DNA of 64,000 bases from Prochlorococcus marinus XMU1419. Its GTDB lineage: Bacteria; Cyanobacteriota; Cyanobacteriia; PCC-6307; Cyanobiaceae. Location: NCBI RefSeq assembly GCF_017695955.1, contig NZ_JAAORO010000003.1:372001-436000 (forward strand), given 5' to 3'. A program made the translations under genes and the position numbers. Shown in pieces: positions 34,875 through 36,787 of this stretch. The number at the start of each line of letters is the position of its first letter. Position 1 is the stretch's first letter. Under the pieces are notes generated by a model. It searched no databases, had not been told where the DNA came from, and worked only from the letters and a program-made list of their open reading frames with translations.

Positions 34875-34981
34875 AAAAATATAATTTAAAAGATTTTTCT
34901 TTTTAAATACGTAGAAGGAGGAAATCTGACTAAAAATATTTGGCAACGCTAGGCAGAGGAAAATAAGTATTATGAATCGTT

Positions 34982-35014
34982 CTCACAACATTATTCACAA
35001 CAAAATTTTTTGAT
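34982..35014 (+). repeat. CTCACAACA repeat, copy 1 (upstream of TM2 gene)
   Basis: About 33 bp carrying two TCACAACA units followed by a T-run and GAT. A near copy lies at 35519-35550, so the two flank the TM2-domain gene as direct repeats. Confidence 0.6.
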
Positions 35015-35100
35015 TTTTTTCAAAAACAAAGTGTTTATCTGAAGTTATATATTGCAAAAATTACAAAGCTAAAATTAAAATTATAAAAATTCTTCTAAAA

Positions 35101-35412
35101 ATGGATTTTCGTATAATCGAATTGCAAAAACAACTCTCTGAAAACGAAAAAAATACATTTAACTACAAATACGAAAGGCAAAAGAAAACTGTTTCAACTG
35201 GAGTGCTTTTAGCTTTATTTGTTGGCGGGTTTGGTATCCATAAGTTCTGGTTAAGCGAAATAGTTCCTGGAGTGCTTTATTTATTATTTTGTTGGACATT
35301 TATACCTTCAATAATTGCTTTAATAGAATGTTTCTTTATGAAAAATACCGTCAATAATTACAATTATCGACTTGCACAAGATATTTTCAAAGAAATAGAA
35401 ATGCTGAGATAA
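35101..35412 (+). CDS. TM2-domain membrane protein
   Basis: 103 residues. After a charged N-terminus, a TM2 domain spans about 31-80: first helix 31-46, the GIHKFWL turn at 45-51 (typical GxHxFYLG of TM2), second helix 53-78. The C-terminus is hydrophilic. TM2 proteins are small membrane proteins of unknown function. It is bracketed by two copies of a CTCACAACA repeat and sits at the edge of the tRNA-Ser islet. Confidence 0.75.
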   Translation: MDFRIIELQKQLSENEKNTFNYKYERQKKTVSTGVLLALFVGGFGIHKFWLSEIVPGVLYLLFCWTFIPSIIALIECFFMKNTVNNYNYRLAQDIFKEIEMLR

Positions 35413-35518
35413 TAGATATAATTTTCAAAAATAATGATTAAATTTAATCCTCCTCAAAACAAATTCACTCAAAAGGATTCTCTTCACTGTAAAAATTAAA
35501 GGCTAAAAAAATATTAGC

Positions 35519-35550
35519 CTCACAACATCCCTCACAACATTTTTTTTGAT
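35519..35550 (+). repeat. CTCACAACA repeat, copy 2 (downstream of TM2 gene)
   Basis: About 32 bp, again two TCACAACA units and a long T-run ending in GAT, closely matching 34982-35014. With copy 1 it brackets a roughly 500-bp segment. Confidence 0.6.
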
Positions 35551-35649
35551 AATCTATGTCATTGAGAGGCAAACTCAAACATTCAAAATTATCAGTTTTC
35601 ATTGTTGTTACTTAATTTTCTATATTCTTAGCAACCGCAGGTTTTCTCA

Positions 35650-35675
35650 GACAACCAATTAGGACGGAGAGGGAG
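35650..35675 (+). repeat. att-like direct repeat of the tRNA-Ser 3' end
   Basis: 21 of 26 bases match 36623-36648, including an uninterrupted ACGGAGAGGGAG that is the discriminator base and acceptor stem of tRNA-Ser plus flank. Orientation is the same as the tRNA end. Confidence 0.45.
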
Positions 35676-35742
35676 TCTTTCAGAGTGAATCAATATGGAA
35701 TTAAATGACACCATATGGAAGGGAAAAGTAGGCATTTAAGGT

Positions 35743-35767
35743 ATTTCCTACCCTATTTCCTACCCCC
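35743..35767 (+). repeat. ATTTCCTACCC repeat cluster, left (two units)
   Basis: Two units start at 35743 and 35755, a 12-bp period. The same unit appears three times at 36477-36523, on the other side of the small ORFs. Confidence 0.55.
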
Positions 35768-35829
35768 TATGAATAGACCTCAAATTCGCCCAAAAGGGCT
35801 GACACGATTGAAGTTTAGTGCTATACTAT

Positions 35830-35982
35830 ATGCATACAAACGGGATAAAACAATTTAATACTTACGACACTCGAAAGAGTTTTATTCGGTGGAATGCTCA
35901 AACCTCCACCTCCATTCGGAAAAGGCAGAAGATAAACAATAATCCCAGATTTAAAGGTCCTGCGACTGATACAAATTACTAA
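35830..35982 (+). CDS. Small basic protein, function unknown (50 residues)
   Basis: An uninterrupted frame of 50 codons, starting MHTNGIKQFNTYDTRK and ending FKGPATDTNY. It is Asn/Thr/Arg-rich, basic, with no membrane segment. A TATACT -10 lies only 3 bp before the ATG, so either another promoter or a downstream start is used; GTG at 35818 is also in frame. A second small ORF follows after 11 bp and a terminator after that. The DNA also forms an ACTC-GAAA-GAGT hairpin at 35869-35880, so a structured RNA is an alternative reading. Confidence 0.5.
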   Translation: MHTNGIKQFNTYDTRKSFIRWNAQTSTSIRKRQKINNNPRFKGPATDTNY

Positions 35983-35993
35983 TCCTTATAAAC

Positions 35994-36080
35994 ATGAAAG
36001 GCGATCATCTTATAAAAGGATGCAAATATTGGGTAAAGAGAAGAGAACTTCGGGAAGGTTGGTGTCCTGAAGTTGCCTAA
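35994..36080 (+). CDS. Small basic peptide, function unknown (28 residues)
   Basis: MKGDHLIKGCKYWVKRREL then REGWCPEVA and stop. It has two cysteines and seven Lys/Arg. It starts 11 bp after the 50-residue ORF and ends 10 bp before an intrinsic terminator-like hairpin, which supports a real transcription unit. Its last 18 bases recur with two changes at 36454-36471. Family unknown. Confidence 0.4.
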   Translation: MKGDHLIKGCKYWVKRRELREGWCPEVA

Positions 36081-36090
36081 AAATAAAATA

Positions 36091-36113
36091 AGAGGGCATT
36101 TGTTTGCCCTCTT
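36091..36113 (+). terminator. Terminator-like hairpin after the small ORFs
   Basis: AGAGGGCA (36091-36098) pairs with TGCCCTCT (36105-36112) around a 6-base loop. Only a short T-run follows, so efficiency is uncertain. Confidence 0.6.
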
Positions 36114-36229
36114 CGAGTCTTATTCACTTCCTTGTCTACAAAGTCGGGGAAGTGCTTTGACTCCTGAATTATTTTTACTCCTAATTCATGGCAAAAGATA
36201 GTCGTGACAACCACAAAGCACTAATACTC

Positions 36230-36243
36230 GGGTAGAAATACCC
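36230..36243 (+). other. GAAA-tetraloop hairpin
   Basis: GGGTA-GAAA-TACCC is a perfect 5-bp stem with a GNRA loop. It lies upstream of a strong Shine-Dalgarno and the 49-residue ORF, so it may be part of that gene's leader. Confidence 0.4.
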
Positions 36244-36296
36244 TATGAATTTCAAGTAAAAAGGAGGACAATATAAGTGTAGATATAGGAGGTCTT

Positions 36297-36446
36297 ATGA
36301 AACTCATTACTCCTTTCACTATTCTCAATCGAAAATTCAATGAAATGGATTTGATTAGAGACGCAATGAAAAAAAGAAGACTAGCAACAGAAAGATTGCA
36401 TGATGATTACAGGAAAATGTACAAAAATCATCAATTTGCATATTGA
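36297..36446 (+). CDS. Small basic protein with strong Shine-Dalgarno (49 residues)
   Basis: 49 codons, starting MKLITPFTILNRKFNEMD and ending MYKNHQFAY. It is basic and probably helical in the middle, with no signal peptide or membrane segment. A perfect AGGAGG lies at 36287-36292, just before the ATG; another AGGAGG is 25 bp earlier at 36262-36267. Strong Shine-Dalgarno sites are uncommon in this window, which supports real translation. I recognise no family. It lies in the tRNA-Ser islet, before the right repeat cluster. Confidence 0.55.
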   Translation: MKLITPFTILNRKFNEMDLIRDAMKKRRLATERLHDDYRKMYKNHQFAY

Positions 36447-36476
36447 AAATAGTTGTACTGAAGTTGCTTAATGATG

Positions 36477-36523
36477 ATTTCCTACACCCATCTATTTCAT
36501 TTCCTACCCCATTTCCTACACCC
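36477..36523 (+). repeat. ATTTCCTAC(A/C)CC repeat cluster, right (three units)
   Basis: Units begin at 36477, 36499 and 36511. The last two are 12 bp apart, the same period as the left cluster at 35743. Together they enclose about 700 bp with the small ORFs. Confidence 0.55.
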
Positions 36524-36637
36524 TTATACTTAATTTCCGTGATATTGTGTGAATATACCTGACTTACTATTTTCTTCTAATTAACTGGTATAACTTAATT
36601 CTGGGATTCTATGAATTCTTCTGACACCTAATAATCA

Positions 36638-36726
36638 CGGAGAGGGAGGGATTCGAACCCTCGACAAAAGTTACCTCCTGTAACTCCTTAGCAGGGAGCC
36701 GCTTTCAACCACTCAGCCACCTCTCC
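36638..36726 (-). tRNA. tRNA-Ser (GCT)
   Basis: 89 nt on the minus strand. Acceptor stem GGAGAGG pairs with CCTCTCC plus discriminator G; D-arm GTGGCTGAGTGG, anticodon loop CTGCTAA with anticodon GCT, a long class II variable arm and the GGTTCGAATCC T-arm. It reads AGC/AGU serine codons. CCA is not encoded. Its 3' end faces the islet with the small ORFs. Confidence 0.95.
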
Positions 36727-36787
36727 AGTTCTTATACATTATCAATTTTTTTGCAAACATTCAAAATTTTTTATTTAATCGAAATGT

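Follow-up and report, generated by a model that had tools for sequence, protein, structure and literature searches.

Two integrase-less mini-elements in tandem at the tRNA-Ser(GCT) gene of Prochlorococcus, probably mobilised in trans by tyrosine integrases that recognise the same arms

The genomes of Prochlorococcus are small and yet show rapid gene gain and loss. Hackl et al. (2023, in Cell) are said to have described the Prochlorococcus tycheposons, which reportedly insert at tRNA genes, seven of which were published, and carry a tyrosine recombinase together with cargo genes. The accessible sections of a further paper give tycheposons a length of 4–200 kb (PMC10872708). In the same sections, additive flexible islands of Methylophilaceae, 330 bp to 42 kb long, are marked by tRNA 3′-end repeats, and these sections contain no description of arm repeats or element families. 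The available part of PMC10187409 places tyrosine integrases of marine picocyanobacteria in variable islands near tRNA-Phe and tRNA-Cys, hence in the same organisms as here and at other tRNAs. CIMEs, as presented in excerpts of PMC5704250, keep their att sites, lack integration genes and accrete in tandem at one site, also at tRNA 3′ ends; they are described there as decayed ICEs or IMEs, mobilised in cis. Finally, the KplE1 prophage possesses a core with repeated arm motifs on both sides and a two-domain integrase (PMC2951348, in the portion available). Integration at tRNA genes, Prochlorococcus tycheposons, CIMEs and islands with tRNA-end repeats are known from these partial texts. In the open-licence literature, to the extent that its text was accessible, no description was found of integrase-less elements with conserved arm pairs, arm families or solo elements at a Prochlorococcus tRNA.

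The window, by which we mean the whole 64-kb stretch of DNA analysed here, contains two such elements beside its tRNA-Ser(GCT) gene. They resemble tycheposons, as far as the latter are covered by the sources above, in the genus, the insertion at a tRNA gene and the presence of cargo; a tyrosine recombinase is found only in integrase-bearing islands of relatives. They differ by their sizes of 767 and 985 bp (0.77 and 0.99 kb), outside the 4–200 kb range, and by having no recombinase, which tycheposons would encode together with hallmark genes. As in CIMEs, att sites are kept (the outer far core being decayed), integration and transfer genes are absent, and tandem accretion at a shared site is seen, in the window and in eight other islands of the first set of relatives. 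Here, in contrast, arms are kept by family, integrase-less elements are the majority and solos exist, and movement in trans, rather than in cis, is our proposal. No ICE or IME parent was seen among the islands examined. The elements may thus be called CIME-like and tycheposon-like, a likeness that assigns them to neither class. Compared with lambda-type sites as the partial sources present them, no integrase gene accompanies the site here, and the arm motif varies from family to family at a position that stays the same.

The integration target, tRNA-Ser(GCT), lies on the minus strand at 36637..36727 with its 3′ end at 36637 (ARAGORN; Rfam RF00005, 62.9 bits). All other features are on the plus strand. 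A repeat search of the window yielded a direct repeat of 29 bp (79% identity) whose end is an exact 12-mer, ACGGAGAGGGAG. One copy, the tRNA-proximal core at 36637..36648, is also the 3′ end of the tRNA gene; the other, the middle core at 35664..35675, was the att-like copy of the first-pass annotation. The likeness claimed there between 35650–35675 and 36623–36648, in the same orientation, was confirmed by count at 21 of 26 bases, as were the 12 consecutive identical bases, starting at 35664 and 36637. The sequence just ahead of both 12-mers is alike because both are the right ends of elements. Only two exact copies of ACGGAGAGGGAG exist in the window, with three further places at two mismatches, and the whole 1.64-Mb genome contains the exact 12-mer at the same number of places, 973 bp apart, and five more with one mismatch. 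A far core, ACGTAGAAGGAG, decayed with two mismatches, was located at 34909..34920, the position of the core in the empty sites of relatives. The island therefore extends over 34909–36648 and the copy at 35664 is the border between an outer and an inner element. The left limit formerly put at 35650 had to be moved accordingly: the 1-kb interval is indeed bounded by the repeat, but represents only the inner half of a tandem pair. Given the genome-wide count of the core and the empty sites in relatives, the earlier idea of a footprint of integration at a tRNA end is supported: the repeat exists as described and is the mark of site-specific integration at this tRNA-Ser(GCT) gene. An Rfam search of the island gave nothing besides the tRNA, two sub-threshold matches overlying it. 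In five occupied relatives (L031, L044, L070, L105 and L107) the tRNA-side core is ACGGAGAGAGAG, the 3′ end of the tRNA gene being one base different; this variant was possibly introduced by the element.

Occupancy was examined with a probe made of the tRNA-Ser gene and the adjoining alr-side sequence, which matched 99 of 101 genomes. The opposite flank is the gene beside cobJ, presumably of the HAD family (the names alr and cobJ are taken over from the first-pass annotation). Loci were taken from 80 of the 98 matching relatives; five of the 80 had no HAD-family gene on the contig, leaving 75 with both flanks on one contig. The interval from the HAD-family gene to tRNA-Ser, which had been proposed for alignment, varies among these 75 from 28 bp to 11.8 kb. 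The site is empty in 34 of them, with gaps of 28–82 bp, and occupied in 41, with gaps of 216 bp to 11.8 kb. The possibility of an identical 1 kb in all relatives is excluded, and an empty landing site, one of the options initially considered, is ruled out for the window, where the interval is occupied and differs from that of the 34 empty relatives. A second set (80 named-record loci minus those of the first set) added 30 empty and 15 occupied sites, and seven loci had no HAD-family gene in the stretch examined. With the window's own island the occupied ones number 42; in 24 of them a far core, with two mismatches or fewer, was present at the empty-site position, and in 18 it was not callable. 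Internal two-mismatch matches in L101, L063, L049, L107 (two) and L173 (one) were not counted as cores. The window's island thus has the tRNA 3′-end copy at its far boundary and the empty sites in relatives that are expected of a tRNA-targeted element, and has no integrase gene of its own.

The outer mini-element (34909..35675, 767 bp) belongs to the TCACAACA arm family and its ends match mini-elements of L095, L034 and L060. The inner one (35664..36648, 985 bp) belongs to the TTTCCTACC family; its ends match elements of L036 and L058, and its right end also L105. In the outer element the left arm pair (34983..35002) consists of TCACAACA at 34983 and 34995, and the right pair (35520..35539) of the same motif at 35520 and 35532. 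The left pair of the inner element (35744..35764) consists of TTTCCTACC at 35744 and 35756. Its right arms (36478..36520) are TTTCCTACA at 36478, TTTCCTACC at 36500 and TTTCCTACA at 36512, the last two being 12 bp apart. Written as TTTCCTAC(C/A), a single motif describes all five inner positions.

The cargo of the outer element is a 103-aa TM2-domain protein (35101..35412; PF05154, 49.4 bits for a cut-off of 27.9). In the inner element a 49-aa small-protein gene (36297..36446), with other copies across the genus, follows a conserved structured leader (36084..36296). A Pfam search with four small ORFs from the 1-kb stretch gave no match. The first-pass annotation had reported neither an integrase nor a known gene: a genome search for integrases of the island family was negative, in the window's island as in the rest of this genome, but the gene at 36297–36446 does recur in the genus. 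Some part of the island was matched in 88 of 149 genomes, mostly the 49-aa gene and its leader, and the median dN/dS of the gene was 0.27 (53 pairs). The leader folded better than 200 of 200 shuffles on each strand (z −3.9 and −4.1), and a terminator-like hairpin can be read on the minus strand. Covariation in the leader alignment was weak (both sides changed in 2 of 53 pairs, with an unfavourable covariation term) and neither the leader nor the 49-aa unit had an Rfam match; the segment 36084..36296 is a possible RNA gene. The unit 36084–36446 is also present in two large integrase-bearing islands, L049 and L107; the L049 island holds a 365-bp inverted copy of the 49-aa-gene region, 99% identical. 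At G022:C1:135054-135885, an integrase fragment with stops adjoins two pieces of the 49-aa gene repeat.

The elements have a common attachment layout, with a core at each end and, inward of either core, a pair of direct repeats spaced by 12 bp, at about +83/+95 from the start of the left core and −147/−135 from the right end. In some families the right pair is at −157/−145, and an extra inward copy is frequent. The sequence of the motif is specific to the family and the same on both sides, and its position is nearly constant across families. Of 54 elements cut by hand, 36 had both cores; removal of four near-duplicates and five elements shorter than 500 bp left 27 non-redundant elements of at least 500 bp. 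A repeat at 12-bp spacing (at least 7 of 9 bases matching) was found in 20 of 27 left zones and 23 of 27 right zones, for 2.2 expected from internal zones; a clear pair was absent from the other seven and four zones, respectively. Spacings other than 12 bp occurred 0–4 times in the same elements. In 23 of 27 cases the left and right zones of one element had a common 10-mer (9 or more bases); the frequency was 26% when the zones came from different elements and 8% when they were internal. Since the zones had been picked after viewing this set, a retest was performed on 11 later elements, at least one of which (L177.1) is closely related to elements of the first set. The 12-bp pair was recovered in 8 of 11 on the left and 8 of 11 on the right (three without a clear pair on each side; control 5%), and the common 10-mer in 10 of 11 (control 4.5%). 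At the level of sequence, repeated arm-type motifs are present on both sides of the core, as in a lambda-type attP, and the 12-bp-spaced repeats are candidate arm-type sites that an integrase would bind. With a strict 9-base rule, repeats at 12-bp spacing were present at 5 of 15 further integrase loci at other sites, in the 510 bp upstream of the integrase. In those 15 stretches 11-bp spacings were commoner than 12-bp ones (20 vs 8), so that these related integrases show no clear preference for 12 bp and the rule is supported for tRNA-Ser(GCT). Several exact repeats at 11-bp spacing were seen in L132, L134, L135, L262 and L263, which have related integrases at other sites; perhaps these integrases use a different arm spacing. 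In L107.3 and L099 the left and right ends are of different arm families, or one side is unrecognisable, which suggests chimeras.

A tyrosine recombinase of 411–435 aa is encoded in the islands of 7 of the 41 occupied relatives, where it is among the first genes inside the left core of its own element. All five island integrases tested matched phrog_1 (integrase). PF00589 was detected in six of the seven, four over the cut-off, and was absent in that of L049, and PF13356 (Arm-DNA-bind_3) in two, both below the cut-off. The closest phage proteins were 24.5% identical over 98% of the integrase, and one such phage record is annotated with an integrase arm-type DNA-binding domain. A search of solved structures with the integrase profile returned none at E 0.01. 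In a search of 266 genomes of the genus, 23 had an integrase match, and G000 had none. The nine integrases above 500 bits were all inside elements with this core (on the G053 contig the core and arms are present and the tRNA is absent). Nine weaker ones were inspected: five were near tRNA-Ser(TGA), tRNA-Ser(CGA) or tRNA-Asn and four had no tRNA in the stretch. The family also exists in other genera, with 27 of 120 genomes of the order. A common arm motif links the integrase-less L040 with the integrase-bearing L063; the window's outer element has that of the integrase-bearing L034.2, and the ATCCCC type that of the integrase-bearing L260. No integrase-bearing element with TTTCCTACC arms on both sides was found. 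Pairs of TTTCCTACC occur in 3 of 101 genomes, the window's and two relatives in which they lie in tRNA-Ser islands, with no island integrase in any of the three. The integrase-bearing element nearest to the inner family is L107.3, with the motif on the left side only.

In eight of the nine first-set tandems, the outermost core is more decayed than the next inward one or is not callable, as expected if newcomers enter at the tRNA; a tandem call needs an inner core with at most two mismatches, which favours this outcome. Cores are perfect throughout in L049 and in L195 of the second set. Eight solo elements, free of cargo, measure 226, 227, 228, 230, 230, 230, 231 and 239 bp. The length predicted for a fusion of the arms is 83 + 147 = 230 bp, and 82 + 157 = 239 bp in the TTACCCACC family, to which the sole 239-bp solo belongs. 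Compared with the two ends of L049.1, the L032 solo agreed at 81 of 83 and 132 of 135 bases; for three other solos the agreement with a guessed parent was poor (30–47 of 83 and 48–89 of 135). Their lengths suggest that solos arise by arm-to-arm recombination, an origin comparable to that of solo LTRs. Alternatively, the solo could be the original minimal form.

We consider it likely that 34909–36648 holds two integrase-less elements in tandem, which are moved in trans by those tyrosine integrases whose arm specificity matches theirs. Each element would consist of a cargo gene between the halves of a lambda-type attachment site and be closed on either side by the 12-bp core, which is identical to the 3′ end of the tRNA. 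The tyrosine integrase of another element with the same arm motif would bind the arms and cores, excise the element as a circle and recombine the circle into the core at the tRNA, and the element-borne core would keep the tRNA gene intact. Newcomers would insert beside the tRNA and shift older elements outward, producing tandems, and if the matching arms of the two sides recombined, the cargo would be lost and a solo of about 230 bp would remain. No excised or packaged form was found; as to the satellite that had also been considered at first, phage records gave no match to the island and viral contigs none to the attP-like junction.

A different reading, which we judge unlikely, is that the mini-elements are remnants of larger integrase-bearing elements, decayed by internal deletion and no longer moving. 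In many islands the far core is decayed or could not be called, and that of the window's outer element is among them; the L107 island contains an integrase fragment with stops, the family's integrase is missing from this genome, and the solos show that cargo can be lost. However, the inner element has two perfect cores and paired arm repeats on both sides; it is therefore more likely a complete integrase-less element than the decayed one that had also been suggested. An integrase is absent in 34 of the 41 occupied relatives, more cases, and more diverse ones, than recent decay could explain by itself. In a 70-locus tree, one group unites L049 (10.7 kb), L078 (empty) and L082 (1.5 kb, no integrase), whose end branches measure 0.006–0.011. 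An integrase-less element thus stands beside an empty site and a different island at approximately 1% divergence, and these differences represent gain or precise loss among near relatives. Moreover, identity between the elements L047.1 and L082.1, neither of which has an integrase, is 96.8%, compared with 88.9% for the alr side (the HAD side being at 95.4%). The window's sister L031 has an element of a different arm family.

Still less probable is a passive exchange, by homologous recombination between the conserved flanks, with no recombinase acting on the cores today. Both flanks are conserved genes and occupancy has some phylogenetic signal: at least 19 empty/occupied changes were counted on the tree (70 rows), for a mean of 23.7 in shuffles, of which 1 in 200 was as low, so that there is much turnover, yet some inheritance. 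Against this mode of exchange, the junctions coincide with the cores, stacked elements too have cores between them, where there is no flank, and one integrase-bearing element is 93–96% identical (three pieces) between hosts whose flanks are only 76–77% identical. A coincidental recurrence of the tRNA end in a normal stretch between genes, conceivable for an exact match of just 12 bases, is rejected by the two exact copies 973 bp apart in 1.64 Mb, the 34 empty sites and the arm geometry. An integron cassette (IntI, folded attC) was set aside, the sites here being the 3′ ends of a tRNA accompanied by arm repeats.

As to the contents of the islands, the commonest cargo is a 617–622-aa carbamoyltransferase with a 130–140-aa partner gene, present in seven islands (L031, L046, L062, L067, L069, L070 and L103). 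Among ten selected island proteins, eight had a Pfam match, including a polysaccharide lyase, a polysaccharide export protein, a carbamoyltransferase, sulfotransferases and a methyltransferase. With cargo of this kind, the benefit could plausibly be an altered cell surface and perhaps an altered susceptibility to phages. On a wider scale, we give about even weight to the existence of a genus-wide pool of integrase-less cassettes shuffled at one tRNA, in which the core would be the address, the arm motif would determine which integrase acts and recombination between arms would produce the solos. The mobile unit would then be two att arms around one or two genes, able to move single genes cheaply, and the arm motifs would predict which elements a given integrase moves and which islands are stacks.
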